The notes beneath the pieces are model-generated. The model was given only the letters and a program-made list of their open reading frames with translations, was not told the DNA's origin and searched no databases. The position numbers and the translations under genes are program-made. Shown here piece by piece: positions 5,826 to 57,464 of a stretch of 64,000 nt of DNA (within the stretch, counting starts at the first letter, position 1; every line of letters begins with the position of its first letter). The DNA is from an uncultured Prevotella sp. GTDB taxonomy: Bacteria; Bacteroidota; Bacteroidia; Bacteroidales; Bacteroidaceae. The DNA is taken from assembly GCA_900315545.1 (NCBI GenBank), contig OMZM01000001.1, positions 62,001-126,000 on the forward strand, given 5' to 3'.

Positions 5826-5883
5826 AAAAAGCAAAGTTTTTATAAAAAGAAGTATTTGCTTATGTTTTTCGTGTCGGAATGTT

Positions 5884-6336
5884 AATCATTTTTTGTCCGT
5901 TTAGTGTCGCGAGAATGCCCGCGAAAGTCGTTTCGGAAATCAAAGGGACAAAATATGCCCAAAATTCAAACACTTACATAACCATCTGACAGTCAGTTTG
6001 TTATCGCATAATATAGCGTTTGTGCGCACGAATTGTATATGTTAAAATTGTCAAACAGTATGTTTGAGATTGTCAAACACACTGTTTGAGGATGTCAGAC
6101 ATAGTGTTTGGGGCTCTCTGACACTGTGTCTGACATGGTAAAATTAGCCAAAAAGCACCCTCAAAGATACTCTTTGACAATTTTAACAGTTAGCGCCGGA
6201 CTGATAATTAACGTAGATTAACACTTTCAGCGACTGTTCCGATTCTATTTGAACGATTTTTGTCTGTCAAAATTTTTCAGCAAATTTCTGTCAAAAAGAA
6301 AAACCGTGCGAGTTTGGCACGGTTTTTGCTGTGAGT
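5884..6336 (+). repeat. Intergenic structured repeat, copy A
   Basis: First of six copies of a non-coding repeat of about 450 bp. The left part contains the conserved stretch GTCGCGAGAATGCCCGCGAA. The core at 6040-6188 is bounded by TGTTAAAATTG and CAATTTTAACA. Inside are palindromic 17-mers starting at 6051, 6073, 6095, 6117 and 6161, with a degenerate slot at 6139, all in a strict 22-bp register. The right part ends with a GC-rich hairpin at 6299-6327. It lies between the 5' end of the HEPN gene and the 3' end of plsC. No convincing protein is encoded, and no terminal inverted repeats or target duplication is seen around the whole unit. Confidence 0.9.
6299..6329. terminator. Hairpin terminator at the right end of repeat A
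   Basis: AAAAACCGTGC (6299-6309) and GCACGGTTTTT (6317-6327) form an 11-bp perfect stem around a 7-nt loop. It has T-runs on both strands, so it can serve the repeat transcript and the leftward plsC operon alike. The hairpin arm GGCACGGTTTTTG also occurs in copies B, C and E, where the opposite arm is decayed. Confidence 0.75.
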
Positions 6337-6474
6337 CGGAAACAGCACCCTAAATTACGTTCCGACTATACTTTTTTATATACTTGTCTATACCTTATTA
6401 TATATAGGCATCTGTCGGCGGCGACGGAATTGCTCATGCAGACTGCCGCTGCCTGTCTGCGACTTTCGTCATGC

Positions 6475-17040: not shown

Positions 17041-17171
17041 ATAGTTTTTTATGACATGAGCAATGTTTCGTGCAAAATTTATGTTTTTTCGGCAATATTT
17101 ATGCTTATATATGGTGTTCTGCCTGGCAAAATCTGCATTGTCGGCATGTGTCGTGAGCGGTGCGGATGTAT

Positions 17172-17624
17172 AATCAATTTTCGCCCGTTTAGTGTCGCGA
17201 GAATGCCCGCGAAAGTCGTTTCAGAAATCTGAGGGGCAAAATATGCCCAAAATCCGCATGCTTCCGTAATCGCCTGACTGTCAACTTATTGTCGCGAAAT
17301 ATAGCGTTTGTGCGCACGAAATGTATATGTTAAAATTGTCAAAGAGCATGTTTGACAATGTCAAACACACTGTTTGAGGAGGTCAGACACTATGTTTGAG
17401 GGGGTCAGACGAAGTGTCTGGCAGGGCAAAACAGACGAAACAGGCGCGTCAAACATACTCTTTGACATTTTTAACAGTTATCGCCGACTCAGTTTTTCAC
17501 ATATTTTTGCACTTTCAGAGGCTGTCCCGCATCTATTTTGCAAGTTTTTCCCTGTCAAAAATTTTCATACTTTTTCGTCCCGAAGAAAAATCCTGCACAG
17601 TTTGGCACGGTTTTTGCAGGGAGT
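17172..17624 (+). repeat. Intergenic structured repeat, copy B
   Basis: Same layout as copy A. The core is 17328-17476 (149 bp), with palindromic slots starting at 17339, 17361, 17383, 17405 and 17449 and a degenerate slot at 17427. The right part has CATATTTTTGC (a -7-like box) just after the core and a decayed GGCACGGTTTTTG hairpin at the end. It is almost identical to copy C across its length. It lies in the divergent gap between rplY and nusB. The remaining 17625-17787 segment shows nothing recognisable. Confidence 0.9.
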
Positions 17625-17787
17625 CTTTCGACGGCACTTTTCCGCGCCGCGAAAAGCATGCGCCGACAGCAGCCGGCAGGACTCACCGTTGCACGAAAAC
17701 CACTGCATTCAGACACCTTATACATCAATTTTTCGCAAGCAAAACTTAATTTAGCCGCATTTTCTTGCACATTTACCGAAAAATACC

Positions 17788-26980: not shown

Positions 26981-27030
26981 CCTTAACCCTGACGACTCAG
27001 AAGCACAGCAGTCGTTAAGGTTAAGGTTAT
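26981..27030 (+). terminator. Hairpin terminator after queF
   Basis: The 17-nt arms at 26981-26997 and 27010-27026 pair with one mismatch and one G-T pair, then TTATTGTTT follows. It separates queF from repeat copy C. Confidence 0.65.
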
Positions 27031-27040
27031 TGTTTATGAC

Positions 27041-27492
27041 CTCCCTACAAAAACCGTGCCAAACTGTGCAGGATTTTTCTTCGAGCCGAAAAAGTATGAA
27101 AAGTTTTGACAGGGAAAAACTTGCAAAATAGATGCGGGACAGCCTCCGAAAGTGCAAAAATATGTGAAAAACTGGGTCGGCGATAACTGTTAAAAATGTC
27201 AAAGAGTATGTTTGACGCGCCTGTTTCGTCTGTTTTGCCCTGCCAGACACTGTGCCCGACACCCTCAAACATAGTGTCTGACTTCCTCAAACAGTGTGTT
27301 TGACATTGTCAAACATGCTCTTTGACAATTTTAACATATACAATTCGTGCGCATAATCGCTATATTTCGCGATAACAAACTGACTGTCAGACGATTACAC
27401 GCATACGCAAAATACGGGCGTATTTTGCCCCTCTGATTTCCGAAACGACTTTCGCGGGCATTCTCGCGACAGTAAACAGGCAAAAATTGATT
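27041..27492 (-). repeat. Intergenic structured repeat, copy C (reverse orientation)
   Basis: The core is 27188-27336 (149 bp). Palindromic slots start at 27199, 27243, 27265, 27287 and 27309, and the degenerate slot is at 27221; read in the element's own orientation these match copies A and B. Copy C is nearly identical to copy B, with only scattered substitutions. It contains the left-arm palindrome CAAAATACGGGCGTATTTTG. It lies between the convergent queF and lipoprotein genes. Confidence 0.9.
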
Positions 27493-27534
27493 ATACTTTA
27501 AGATGCAGGAATATGGATGATGAGAAAAAGCAAA

Positions 27535-35195: not shown

Positions 35196-36026
35196 TTACA
35201 TTTTCCCTCTCTCATCCAATACAACTTCTGCGTTCTTATATAGTGTGGGGATATCGTAATAATGAATACGGAACTTGGTGCCATGGTTGTGACCGGTTCG
35301 TGCATCGAAATCAACATAAACCTTGCCTTGACGGATGGCGTCAATAAACTTATCTTGGTCGAATTGCGACAGTTTCAGAACATAGTTATAGAGGAAAAAG
35401 TTTTCGCGCTTGCTATTTTTGACTTCAAACTTCTGGTCGGCTTGGACATAGAAGCAATTCGTGAGTTTAACACCAGCTTTATGGAATAGGTCATCAAATC
35501 CCCAATAAGGCGCAACGTCGAAATTGTTCAAATGACCAACACGTTTTTCCACGCTATCAACCCATCCTGAATGACGCTCGTCGGTATGTGCGTTATCGAA
35601 TACTATTTCCACACGACGTTGTTCGTCATTGACATTTACCTTGAAGCCCCTATCACTATATGTTTTTGCGTTGAGAGTAGCACGGAAGGATTTCTCATCA
35701 TCAGGATATAAACTACCTGCCTTAGCTGAAGCCCACCCGTATTTTTGAAGCAGAATGCTTGGAACAATTTTCATTGCGCGTGGTGATGGCTCCATATGGA
35801 ACATTGTTAGCAGCGATGAAGTATCAGAACGTTGCGCTTTTAGTTCCCACTCCGCGGCGTTAGGGATTGGCAAGTTATTTTCGGGAATCTCCAACAAGTC
35901 TTCAAGAGTATTCCCGACTGCACCATCATTTTTCCCACGTTCATTCTTAATCCAGCCTTTGGCATAAATTTCCTTGAACTTCTCTATTAATTCTTCTTTA
36001 GAAAAGACTTTTAATACTGTACTCAT
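35196..36026 (-). CDS. MvaI/BcnI-family type II restriction endonuclease
   Basis: 276 residues from MSTVLKVFSKEEL; an upstream Met at 36056 adds ten residues that only lengthen the overlap with the methyltransferase gene. It matches MvaI/BcnI enzymes in GWIKNERGKNDGAVGNTLED and in the catalytic NAAEWELKAQR (the E-x-K part of the PD-(D/E)xK-type site). This family cleaves CCWGG or CCSGG as a monomer, with a strand nick per reaction. It overlaps the methyltransferase gene by 29 bp. Its composition is more AT-rich than the neighbours, suggesting transfer. Confidence 0.88.
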   Translation of the reverse strand: MSTVLKVFSKEELIEKFKEIYAKGWIKNERGKNDGAVGNTLEDLLEIPENNLPIPNAAEWELKAQRSDTSSLLTMFHMEPSPRAMKIVPSILLQKYGWASAKAGSLYPDDEKSFRATLNAKTYSDRGFKVNVNDEQRRVEIVFDNAHTDERHSGWVDSVEKRVGHLNNFDVAPYWGFDDLFHKAGVKLTNCFYVQADQKFEVKNSKRENFFLYNYVLKLSQFDQDKFIDAIRQGKVYVDFDARTGHNHGTKFRIHYYDIPTLYKNAEVVLDERGKM

Positions 36027-36834
36027 TATCTTTCTTCTTTTTACGCTTTGGAGCAATAGTTACTACTTCCGAGAATAAAACTGGCTGATGGTATTTAGCG
36101 ACTTCAGGATTGGTCTTGTTTCTCTCCAGTCTTTCAAGAGCGGTTTCGCAATATTTAGCTGATTTTTCTATACCAATAAAATCCCTGCCTAGTCCAGCAG
36201 CAACAACTGCCGTTGTTCCTGAGCCCATGAATGGATCAAGTATGATTTGTCCCATTGTTGATGAAATAATGCGGTCAATCAGTTCAACAGGGAACGGAGC
36301 CGGATGGTCATTACGCTGTTCCTGCATTATTTCCCATACGTCACCATAGCGATTTGTATGCGGAGCTAATTTGAAATCCTTCTTGGCTATGAGGTAAATT
36401 ACTTCGTACGTCGGCAGGAAATATCCTGCATTGAAGTTAATGCCTCCTTTACGCTTCCAAATGATAATCTGCCGCAAAGGAACATCATATACAATATCCC
36501 TGCGATCTTGGATAAGTCCTGCCTGCACACGCCACTTATGATTATAGAATATGGCTCCGTCATCTTTAATAACGCGAACAAGTTCCAGCAGGACTTCGTG
36601 CTGCCATTTAGCGTACTCGTCATTCGGCATACAATCATCATAATTCTCGTAACCTTCAATCAACGCCGCGTTAGCCCATTTTCCTCCACGTCCGTCCTTC
36701 ATTCCATTACCCGTAGAGTTCTTGAGATTATAGGGTGGCGAAGTGACGACAACATCAATGCAGTTGTCCGGCAACTTCTTCAATACGTCCATGCAATCGG
36801 CGTTAATGATTCTATTCAGATATTCTTCTAACAT
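35998..36834 (-). CDS. DNA (probably N4-cytosine) methyltransferase of the MvaI-type system
   Basis: 278 residues of the beta-class order: the catalytic TSPPYNLKNSTGNG (about residues 30-43) comes first and the SAM motif DPFMGSGTTAVVAAG comes late (about 205-220), followed by DFIGIEKSAKYCETALERL. TSPPY is typical of m4C enzymes such as M.MvaI, so it should protect CCWGG or CCSGG. It is the first gene of the pair and its end overlaps the endonuclease start. This order gives methylation before cleavage when the pair enters a new host. Confidence 0.88.
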   Translation of the reverse strand: MLEEYLNRIINADCMDVLKKLPDNCIDVVVTSPPYNLKNSTGNGMKDGRGGKWANAALIEGYENYDDCMPNDEYAKWQHEVLLELVRVIKDDGAIFYNHKWRVQAGLIQDRRDIVYDVPLRQIIIWKRKGGINFNAGYFLPTYEVIYLIAKKDFKLAPHTNRYGDVWEIMQEQRNDHPAPFPVELIDRIISSTMGQIILDPFMGSGTTAVVAAGLGRDFIGIEKSAKYCETALERLERNKTNPEVAKYHQPVLFSEVVTIAPKRKKKKDNEYSIKSLF

Positions 36835-37000
36835 TGTATATCGATTTAACTGTCTGCAAAGTTACGTAAAAAATCGCTAATTGTTTTCTCTTGGACGTTA
36901 AAAGTCTAAAAGATTAGCAAAAGTATTACGTTTTATTACATTCACCAGTTTTCATATGTTTCCTGAATAACAAAAATCTGGCTCAAATTTGTGCATGAAA

Positions 37001-37398
37001 AACCGTTTTTACTGTCGCGAGAATGGCGTCGAAAGTCGTCGCGAGTATTTTGCATGCCAAATTCGCGAGTATTTCGTGTGCATCTTTATTTCTCTGACAG
37101 TCAGCATATTAACACGAAACACATGCCTTGTGTGCAAAAAATATGAGTGTTAAAATTGTCAAAGAGGCTCTTTGACATCCTCAAACAGTGTGTTTGACAC
37201 TCCCAAACATAGTGTTTGAGAATGACAAACACTATGTTTAGCACGCAAAAAACGCAAAATAGACGGGATAAACATGCTCTTTGACAATTTTAACACTTGT
37301 GTCTGACAGTCAATTTTACATATATTTGCCGAATGAAAGTTTTGTTAACATCTCTTTGGAGCATTTCAGTCTGTCAAAAAAAAATCACAAATTTTGCC
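37001..37398 (+). repeat. Intergenic structured repeat, copy D
   Basis: The most diverged copy. The core is 37148-37295 (148 bp, one base shorter). Slots start at 37159, 37181, 37203, 37225, 37247 (degenerate) and 37268. The 11-bp inverted borders are perfect. After the core, TACATATATTTGCC keeps a -7-like box and TGTCAAAAAAAAATCACAAA is shared with copy E. The terminal GC hairpin is missing, because the repeat runs straight into the stop codon of the AraC gene. The segment 36835-37000 between it and the methyltransferase holds no recognisable feature. Confidence 0.88.
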
Positions 37399-37402
37399 AA
37401 AA

Positions 37403-38281
37403 CTACCCCTCTTCGCGGAAACTTTTTGGCGACATTCCCTTGTTGCGCAGGAAGAATTTGCTGAACGACGCGATGTCGGCAAAATTCAGTCGCTCGGCTA
37501 TCTGCATGACGCTGAGGTCTGTCGTCTTCAGCAGAAACGACGCCTCCATAGTCAGGAACTGGTTTATGTAGTCGACAACCGTGCGTCCGGCAACCTGACG
37601 CACTACGCGCGAGAGATAGACCTTAGATATGTTGAGTTCGGATGCATAGAATGCTATGTCGTGATGCCGTGAGAAATGCTTTGGCAGCAGGCGTATGAAG
37701 CCGATGAAGATGTCTTCCACACGTCCCGTAACGCTGCGGTGAGCGATAGCCCTGTCCTGCGCGTTTTGCATGTCGAGCAGGAATACGGCATACTGCATCT
37801 GCAAAATCTTCTGCTTGTAGATATGGTCTGAGTGCAGGTAGTGTATTATTTCCTTCATCTTTACTGCCAGCGAGAGCGCATCGTCGTGGCGCAGTGTCAG
37901 CTTGGGTCGGTTCAGCTGGACGAAAGGCTGATATGCCATGTGTACGAGGTCGTGGGCAGCAGGCGTGTCTATCGTTACAAACTCGTCAGCCAGAAGGCAG
38001 ATGCCGCGATAGTCGTCGGATGCCGACAGTATGTCGACAGACATGCCCGGCGAGTAGATATAGAGGTCGTCAGCCCCGAGAGTGAGCTGCTGACCGTTGT
38101 AGACTATGTTCAACGTGCCGCCGAGAACCAGCGTAAACGTGTATGCAGACATATAGCCACGCGTCCTGTTGGCACGGAAGGTTATAGCCGCGTCAGTTTC
38201 CGCACAGTATATCTTTCCGTCCCAGTCAGCCACAGGCTCACTGCCGTGCATCCTAATCCATGCTTCTTTCAGGCTGTACAT
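37403..38281 (-). CDS. AraC-family transcriptional regulator
   Basis: 292 residues. The N-terminal cupin-like ligand domain covers about 25-120 (VLGGTLNIVYNGQQLTLGADD). The C-terminal 100 residues hold the two-helix-turn-helix AraC domain: DIAFYASELNISKVYLSRVV and SVMQIAERLNFADIASFSKF, ending GMSPKSFREE. It is transcribed away from the ferritin-like gene, which it may control. The promoter -7 box is almost at the start codon. Confidence 0.9.
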   Translation of the reverse strand: MYSLKEAWIRMHGSEPVADWDGKIYCAETDAAITFRANRTRGYMSAYTFTLVLGGTLNIVYNGQQLTLGADDLYIYSPGMSVDILSASDDYRGICLLADEFVTIDTPAAHDLVHMAYQPFVQLNRPKLTLRHDDALSLAVKMKEIIHYLHSDHIYKQKILQMQYAVFLLDMQNAQDRAIAHRSVTGRVEDIFIGFIRLLPKHFSRHHDIAFYASELNISKVYLSRVVRQVAGRTVVDYINQFLTMEASFLLKTTDLSVMQIAERLNFADIASFSKFFLRNKGMSPKSFREEG

Positions 38282-48302: not shown

Positions 48303-48436
48303 TGCGTGTTTTTGTTATATTATGTGTGTCTTCGATATATAAATGCAAATTTACTAATAAATTTGGAAATGCTGATTGATTGACACTTTTTAACCTTGCG
48401 AACACCAAGATTGTGTCGGCTGACGAGAAAAACAAT

Positions 48437-48890
48437 AATCAATTTTCGGGCGTTTTACTGTCGCGAGAATGCCCGCGAAAGTCGTTTCGGAAATCTGAGG
48501 GGCAAAATACGAGCGTATTTCGCGTGTATCTGCAATGGTCTGACAATCAGAATGTTATCTGGAAATATAAGCCTTGTGTGCAAAAAACATTAGTGTTAAA
48601 AATGTCAAAGAGTATGTTTGAGATTGTCAAACACACTGTTTGAGGAGCTCAAACACAGTGTTTGAGCATGTCAGATGAAGTATTTGGCAGGGTGAAAAAC
48701 ACGATTTAGGTGTGTCAAAGATACTCTTTGACAATTTTAACAATTATATTTGGTCATGGAATTAACATATTTTTGCCGTTCGGAAGGCTAATTTTGTTCT
48801 ATTTGAAGACTTTTTCTTTGTCAAAAAAAAATCACAAATCAGCCTTCCGACGGCAGTCGTCTATGAGTTTGGCACGGTTTTTGCTGTGAG
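48437..48890 (+). repeat. Intergenic structured repeat, copy E
   Basis: The core is 48594-48742 (149 bp). Slots start at 48605, 48627, 48649, 48671, 48693 (degenerate) and 48715. The fourth hairpin, TCAGATG-AAG-TATTTGG, differs from other copies yet still pairs completely with wobbles. After the core come CATATTTTTGCC (a -7-like box) and GGCACGGTTTTTGC. It lies between menB and the esterase gene. Confidence 0.9.
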
Positions 48891-48936
48891 AGTGCCAAAG
48901 CGTATGTGTAGGTAAGGAAATTGCCCTATCGGCGCG

Positions 48937-56751: not shown

Positions 56752-57005
56752 CTCAAATCAAGTATTTCTGTTTTTCGTCGCGCGAAGGTACAACTAATCG
56801 CGCAAAGAAACAAAATTATTTCTCCTTTTCTTTGCGGTTGCGACATGCGGCAACGTAAAAACGGCACTTGCCATTTACTGTCGGCAGGGCGGTAAAGGCG
56901 GGCAGTAGAAATGATGAAAAATCTTTACAAAGCACTGTATGGTTTTTATGTCGAAACAGAGAAAAAAGTGGCTCTTTGAGGGGTGGTTTTGGTGTCAGGG
57001 GCATG

Positions 57006-57300
57006 TGTTAAAAATGTCAAAGAGTATGTTTGACATGCTTTTTGCTTAGAAATGGGCTTGCAAAACTTAGCCTCTGACACTCCCAAACACTATGTCTGAG
57101 GTTGTCAAACACACTGTTTGAGGCGCTCAAACAGTGTGTTTGACAATTTTAACACTTGCATTTATCGCACGGATGCCTTATGTTCAGGGCTATCGGCTTG
57201 AACGTCAGACGATTGCAACTTGCACGCAAAAAACGGGCATATTTTGCCCTTGCGATTTCCGGAACGGGCATCGAGGGCACTCACGAGGGCGTTTTTTGAC
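57006..57300 (-). repeat. Intergenic structured repeat, copy F (reverse, truncated)
   Basis: The core is 57006-57154 (149 bp), bordered by TGTTAAAAATG and CAATTTTAACA. Slots start at 57017, 57039, 57061, 57083, 57105 and 57127, with those at 57039 and 57061 degenerate. In its own orientation, the left part (GGGCAAAATATGCCC and neighbours) is kept to the right of the core, but the part after the core is missing. A 15-bp direct repeat flanks it (56917-56931 and 57302-57316). It lies between the divergent EamA and lysS genes. The gap from 56752 to 56916 holds nothing recognisable. Confidence 0.88.
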
Positions 57301-57464
57301 AAAAAATCTTTACAAACATGCTGCCGGCTGGAAACGTAACGGCTGTGCTTTTCGCGTGATTACAGTTTACCATGAACATGCTGCTTTCGCTCGCTTATTG
57401 TATAAAATCCACATGCCCGACACAATAAATCTGTTTATTTTGCTCTCGTTAAACGGATTTTTTG

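Follow-up and report, generated by a model that had tools for sequence, protein, structure and literature searches.

Six large repeats lie between the genes of the window (the whole stretch of 64,000 nucleotides of uncultured Prevotella sp. DNA analyzed here), and the question is what they are: a mobile element, regulatory or RNA units, or sites that serve the chromosome itself. The original prediction, made from the letters alone, had grouped them as one family. A profile HMM confirmed all six as homologous copies, far beyond chance (Table 1).

Table 1. Copies of the first-type element in the window, with their cores and profile HMM matches (window positions).
Feature	Element	Core	Strand	HMM hit	HMM positions	Score (bits)
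Element copy 1	5883..6328	6040..6188	+	5861-6353	18-510	468
Element copy 2	17171..17616	17328..17476	+	17144-17635	13-504	529
Element copy 3	27048..27493	27188..27336	-	27027-27509	24-506	532
Element copy 4 (diverged)	36960..37442 (bounds of the HMM hit)	37148..37295	+	36960-37442	20-499	325
Element copy 5	48436..48883	48594..48742	+	48410-48904	14-506	436
Element copy 6 (shortened right module)	56907..57338	57006..57154	-	56907-57338	14-444	270

A full copy of this element, hereafter called the first type, measures approximately 446 bp in the consensus and has three parts, with a core of 149 bp between a left and a right module. The left module starts with TAATCAATTTT and contains GTCGCGAGAATGCCCGCGAAAGTCGTTTC, and the right module terminates in TTTGGCACNNTTTTTG; both exact end motifs are present in four of the six window copies, and copies 4 and 6 have neither. 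The core opens with the 19-mer TGTTAAAAWTGTCAAAGAG and closes with its inverse. Between these near-perfect inverted 19-mers lie palindromes of the type TCAAACA-N3-TGTTTGA, with successive units at a strict 22-bp period; the hairpin array that had been proposed for the core is here refined to an array with this strict period. An element copy on a rumen MAG contig (L107) carries six in-register units in a row. Copy 4 is flanked by genes for an N6/N4 DNA methylase (35998-36834) and an AraC-type regulator (37403-38281), and its HMM hit runs approximately 39 bp into the right-hand predicted gene.

The ends of the element were examined in 71 pieces, from which a motif search recovered 51 left and 56 right ends. 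No outer inverted repeats were found in this set, and the consensus ends are non-complementary by eye; the claim that terminal inverted repeats are lacking stands for the outer ends, but not for the core with its inverted 19-mers. Consistent target duplications had likewise been denied, and none is evident by eye in the flanks of the element pieces, which offer no empty site for comparison. The GC hairpin said to be usual in the right part is perfect in only 2 of the 56 right ends, copy 1 among them. We also considered a promoter at the right ends (TTTGGCAC-N2-TTTTTGC, e.g., 6313-6329), which resembles the sigma-54 -24/-12 consensus. This candidate was rejected, as only 37 of the 56 ends have the C of this box at -12 and the other 19 have a T.

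The source genome comprises 2,288,422 bases in 56 contigs and is 92% complete. Allowing at most one mismatch, the 19-mer TGTTAAAAWTGTCAAAGAG matches it 138 times in the forward and 136 times in the reverse direction, compared to 0 and 0 for a reversed-pattern control. As a full core holds one 19-mer each way and a hybrid core (described below) only one, the genome contains an estimated 130-140 cores. Ten contigs (1,127,721 bases without N, about half of the genome) were searched with an HMM based on 34 copies, with one further retrieved contig left aside, yielding 84 pieces that resolve into 77 sites. These are distributed over all 10 contigs and are not limited to one mobile element. Five contigs of the genome (C17, C18, C22, C36, and C55) start within an element, and assembly was probably interrupted by the repeat at these points.

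Matches to the 19-mer are found in 8 of 399 genomes of the genus: the source genome and seven others with a single hit each, one of which (G005) is a genuine partial copy of the element. Among the matches listed, pieces of the element occur in at least three rumen MAG records, RUG13423, RUG624, and RUG753 (L107, L110, and L111), whose genomes hold just two copies, one partial copy and one copy, respectively; misbinned stray contigs or rare transfer are possible sources of these pieces. De novo repeat detection in four relatives, with 100 kb taken from each, revealed no dispersed family of comparable depth (maximum 5), compared to a depth of 14-24 at most sites in the source genome. A search of 72,556 plasmid records with one element copy gave zero matches. 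A viral origin was rejected, as the 19-mer is present in six viral contigs but none of these matches the element HMM at E 0.001.

Genes were called by a simple script that uses a coding score, and by these calls each of the 77 sites is intergenic, with a gene overlap that never exceeds 60 bp after trimming 60 bp at each end. The 71 sites with genes on both sides are located in divergent (26), convergent (19) and tandem (26) gaps, the three settings that had been described for the window copies. All junctions in the ten contigs number 100 divergent, 100 convergent and 666 tandem, and the sites therefore favor the ends of transcription units.

The sites are also over-dispersed. Neighbor distances (n = 67) have a mean of 14.2 kb and a coefficient of variation (CV) of 0.53, and a single distance is shorter than 6.5 kb, where 25.2 would be expected under uniform placement and 24.5 under placement at transcription-unit junctions. 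As few as one close distance was obtained in 0 of 5000 simulations under each of the two models. The closest neighbors are 7.5 kb apart in opposite orientation (36 pairs) and 3.9 kb apart in the same orientation (31 pairs). Recombination between direct repeats was rejected as the cause of the spacing, since neighbors in opposite orientation also avoid closeness. The evenness of the spacing is the most unusual feature of these repeats and was absent from the original prediction, as were the second motif and the arrays of the same form in related species described below. At a place beyond the window (C17:146483-147281), a full copy of the first type has a truncated one approximately 140 bp away in opposite orientation.

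By masking the element and comparing the leftover intergenic DNA, we found a second family of palindromes, TTACA-N7-TGTAA, which also forms arrays with a 22-bp period. Adjacent pairs of second-type units (≤3 mismatches) occur 110 times genome-wide, compared to 0 for the control. The 19 second-type arrays comprise 13 solo arrays, without recognizable shared flanks, and six hybrids, in which the array is situated between first-type left and right modules and replaces most of the first-type core. In all six hybrids, the sole remaining first-type unit is in exact 22-bp phase with the units of the second type.

The two families share one spacing rule. For all 13 solo arrays the nearest first-type site is at least 5966 bp away, a result as extreme as which was obtained in 0 of 10000 random placements, and 12 of them are located in gaps of more than 15 kb (P = 0.0013). 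When both types are combined (90 sites), the mean spacing is 12.2 kb with a CV of 0.37, compared to 0.88 in simulations, and 1 of 80 distances is below 5.5 kb, compared to 27.6 simulated. The excess of the spacing past 8 kb fits an exponential distribution (KS p = 0.23), and the fit is poor if a hard limit of 6 kb is assumed (p = 0.002); the sites thus follow a soft exclusion of approximately 6-8 kb and not a crystal-like period.

The 22-bp period was confirmed with a scan that uses no motif and scores four (or three) palindrome centers at a given period. Across 1.13 Mb of the source genome, the four-unit scan gave 55 hits at period 22, each at a known site, and 0 hits at periods 17-21 and 23-30 in the ten contigs. 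With three units, 36 hits were obtained at period 22, 3 at period 33 and 0 at the remaining periods between 14 and 39. No third kind of motif was detected in the ten contigs at the four-unit threshold.

Arrays with a 22-bp period, mostly of other motifs, are also present in 9 of 12 other genomes sampled from the genus, five of which were picked for their hits. The pattern of two adjacent second-type units was searched for in 60 genomes (the source genome included, 36 of the genus) and occurs in seven: 89 times in the source genome, 28 in G028, 13 in G026, 9 in G003, 4 in G017, 2 in G024 and once in G419, which belongs to another family. The control pattern occurs in two genomes, once each. The stretches from G003, G017, G026, and G028 and one stretch from G024 were picked because of hits. 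Eight further stretches of the genus were not picked for hits (G016, G024 at 500-600 kb, G045, G117, G004, G008, G009, and G010), and four of these contain arrays (G045, G004, G008, and G010). A clear array is absent from the stretches of G016 (100 kb, one weak candidate), G117 (100 kb, nothing convincing) and G009 (58 kb). The arrays are therefore common in the genus, but not universal. The array in G045 adjoins a 23-bp repeat.

The most extensive set was obtained from 590 kb of G028, in which the four-unit scan found 24 hits at period 22, 0-1 at the other periods between 17 and 32, and 10 at period 33; the latter equals 1.5 × 22 and is expected because the half-sites alternate. With motif searches added, G028 contains 36 arrays: 18 of AATAGNCTATT, 8 of CAAAGTTATTAACTTTG, 4 of TTACA-N7-TGTAA, 2 of TGATTAGGGCCTAATCA and 4 single kinds, of which the GGACTG kind is weak because pairs of its motif are found at period 21 as well (2 versus 1). 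The midpoints of 34 of the 36 arrays fall outside open reading frames of at least 100 codons, in a sequence with a non-coding share of 15%. Further kinds were found in 154 kb of G026 (TTATACA-TGTATAA, GTTTCATCATGATGAGAC, and AAAGAAAGGCTTTCTTT), together with a mosaic array near C3 position 122084 in which two unrelated palindromes share one 22-bp register. In seven more genomes (398 kb), 14 four-unit hits were found at period 22, 0-2 at other periods between 17 and 32, and 5 at period 33. Three- and four-unit hits taken together number seven in G017, two each in G003, G008, and G010, one in G004, and none in G009 and in G403, a member of another family.

Spacing in the relatives is less uniform. 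Two of 34 distances in G028 are below 6 kb, compared to 11.4 expected (0 of 10000 simulations); both close pairs (2.1 and 4.0 kb) join different kinds, and the 10 same-kind neighbors are all at least 8.6 kb apart. Two kinds of array lie approximately 450 bp apart in G026. In G017, seven arrays of several motif kinds occupy 60 kb (C92:90783-142641), denser than elsewhere, with gaps of 4.6, 18.0, 4.0, 14.2, 7.5, and 3.4 kb; the three short gaps join different motifs, which means that kinds do not exclude each other in this genome. For unrelated motifs, exclusion is thus strong in the genome of the window and weaker in G028, and it was not observed in G017.

We also compared array positions between species. 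Orthologous gene ends flanked by an array in a relative have one in the source genome as well in 8 of 17 cases, compared to 34 of 108 gene ends without (P = 0.16, with some junctions counted twice). For G028 alone the numbers are 6 of 10 versus 12 of 54 (P = 0.023, a comparison chosen afterwards and with some junctions counted twice), and for the 16 fully syntenic junctions 2 of 2 versus 3 of 14. These values are only suggestive of a conserved position.

Taken as a whole, we favor the reading that the arrays are intergenic landmarks of the chromosome that provide a platform for a chromosome-organizing protein, most simply as loop anchors or supercoil barriers, and give it a probability of roughly 0.38. 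Each array presents approximately 3-6 palindromes at an exact 22-bp period, which places alternating half-sites along one face of the double helix, approximately 11 bp or one helical turn from one to the next. Dimers of a DNA-binding protein could line up on such a platform, or the DNA could wrap on protein, and the resulting nucleoprotein complex would organize the chromosome by anchoring loops or by blocking the diffusion of supercoils between transcription units. The spacing would then be maintained by selection rather than by insertion bias. In favor of this reading are the avoidance of closeness across two unrelated motifs in the source genome, the fixed period and register, the constraint in copies without recent origin, and the similar avoidance in G028; against it stand the close pairs of different kinds in the relatives, the three sampled stretches of the genus without a clear array, and a positional conservation that is only suggestive. 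A broader version extends the landmark reading to a system in Prevotella with a fixed 22-bp frame, in which the palindromes turn over and coexisting kinds substitute for each other, with arrays approximately 8-15 kb apart in at least two of the genomes read, serving as anchors of loops or supercoil domains; we consider this wider claim possible, though on the doubtful side. Lrp/AsnC paralogs were considered as binding proteins and rejected: PF01037 is present in two copies in G000, G028, G026, G003, and G017, and also in G016, so that the number is two with and without many arrays and shows no association.

The strongest competitor assumes a non-autonomous mobile element whose transposition machinery has target immunity, which would keep new copies from inserting within several kb of existing ones; the palindromes would then be binding sites for a transposase and the arrays would have no function for the host. 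Target immunity is known from the transposition of Mu and Tn7. We regard this as a real possibility, although we would still bet against it. The scaffold of approximately 446 bp shared by 58 near-full-length copies implies dispersal, for which the landmark reading must likewise find some route. The soft form of the exclusion, exponential past 8 kb and without a fixed period, suits an immunity mechanism, as does the absence of the element in number from 398 other genomes of the genus. The close pairs in the relatives, joining different motifs, are what kind-specific immunity would allow. However, exclusion in the source genome spans two unrelated motifs without recognizable shared flanks, which is hard to square with an ordinary sequence-specific immunity and easier with a shared function, a point that the relatives weaken.

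The age of the copies also bears on the mobile-element explanation. The 58 near-full-length copies have a mean pairwise identity of 75%, with a maximum of 90%, and hence include no recent copy. Yet 141 of 457 columns vary in at most one copy, compared to 0.1 expected under uniform change. For copies this old and this constrained, function in place is an easier explanation than decaying insertions. The lack of outer inverted repeats, and of target duplications evident by eye, adds to the case against mobility. REP sequences are linked to Y1-type transposases (RAYT). Such a transposase, characteristic of REPIN/BIME systems with RAYT, was not found in the genome of the window: a search for Y1_Tnp (PF01797) gave 0 matches in this 92% complete assembly and was positive in 5 of 14 controls. 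The earlier statement that no transposase accompanies the repeats holds to this extent, PF01797 being the family that the search covered.

Alternatively, the arrays could be operator clusters of ordinary regulators, or insulators or terminators at the ends of transcription units, with a spacing that follows from the size of gene clusters. The exclusively intergenic position of the sites and their preference for unit ends are in line with this, and several regulators could explain why several motif kinds exist per genome, sometimes close together. We nevertheless consider it unlikely, as simulations restricted to junctions still produce 24.5 close pairs where one is observed, and the 12 genes that adjoin the six window copies are dissimilar in function. 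Moreover, the sites have no orientation bias relative to genes (9 versus 6 in the first tandem class and 7 versus 4 in the second); a tendency of elements to be oriented against tandem genes, seen in 11 of 13 cases among the first 28 pieces, was gone with 77 sites.

Substitutions within the units bear on a last alternative, in which RNA or single-stranded DNA of the arrays would be active in folded form, as a dispersed family of noncoding RNAs or hairpins. In first-type units 3 and 4 (49 copies), G.U combinations outnumber A.C combinations by 170 to 26, a surplus that hints at a strand-specific fold, which the landmark reading does not need. Changes between A and G exceed those between C and T two to one in the core only (322 to 149; left module 409 to 475, right module 374 to 338), and the second-type pair 7-11 covaries (0.58 versus 0.41 in shuffled data). 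In contrast, three first-type hairpins in 34 copies have no covariation above shuffles. Second-type pair 6-12 (72 units) conserves purine or pyrimidine without Watson-Crick covariation, as expected for half-sites read in duplex DNA, and without clear asymmetry (GT 23, AC 15). On balance, these patterns favor duplex half-sites over an RNA hairpin. With no orientation relative to genes, many divergent sites, an exact 22-bp period for which RNA offers no obvious reason, and no match to Rfam (0 across the whole window at gathering thresholds, the comparison that had been proposed for the repeats), an RNA family is very improbable.

BOX elements of Streptococcus resemble the window element in their modular layout with a variable middle block. 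The original prediction knew of no described Bacteroidetes repeat of this structure, but at least two repeats are similar in kind, according to the accessible parts of their descriptions. PINSR of Prevotella intermedia is a 188-bp intergenic repeat without terminal inverted repeats, present in 177 and 184 copies, with approximately three-quarters of the regions common to two strains (PMC4755523). The window element has all the shared traits (high copy number, intergenic position, no terminal inverted repeats, occurrence in Prevotella), and PINSR may belong to the same class, by comparison of the descriptions only; it is however shorter (188 versus approximately 446 bp), and its description, as far as accessible, mentions neither palindromes arrayed at 22 bp nor a rule of spacing nor a second motif (PMC4755523). 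The BrickBuilt MITE of Porphyromonas gingivalis has a leader and a tail that enclose 23-nt repeats in tandem; it is present in 19 copies in ATCC 33277, and the repeats expand and contract between strains (PMC4596501). It shares with the window element the intergenic position and the repeat array between two end parts, but has IS-like terminal inverted repeats, which the window element lacks, and neither palindromic phasing nor a spacing rule is mentioned for it in the accessible part of the report (PMC4596501).

As a functional comparison, the BIMEs (REP arrays) of E. coli are closest. These intergenic palindrome arrays number approximately 600 per genome; one was shown to impede supercoil diffusion and BIMEs have been proposed as domain barriers, and, unlike the arrays described here, they have no distance exclusion reported in the accessible part of the source (PMC6907758). 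Palindrome arrays with even spacing or a 22-bp phase were not found to be reported in a literature search that left most subscription journals outside its reach. Repeats dispersed between genes are in themselves well known; what would be new is a spaced, motif-flexible system of arrays.

The arrays can be located from sequence alone in several species, between transcription units. What supercoil diffusion barriers consist of is among the open questions named in the accessible part of a review on the E. coli nucleoid from 2019 (PMC6907758). If the arrays are barriers or loop anchors, domain boundaries would become predictable; if their spacing stems from target immunity, they would form a rare record of this process at genome scale. 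To judge from our literature searches, both outcomes would be novel. The motif-blind scan at period 22 is simple and can be run on any genome. As a minor observation, another genome of the genus contains two GGGAAC/GTTCCC palindromes 22 bp apart (L062, near position 149).
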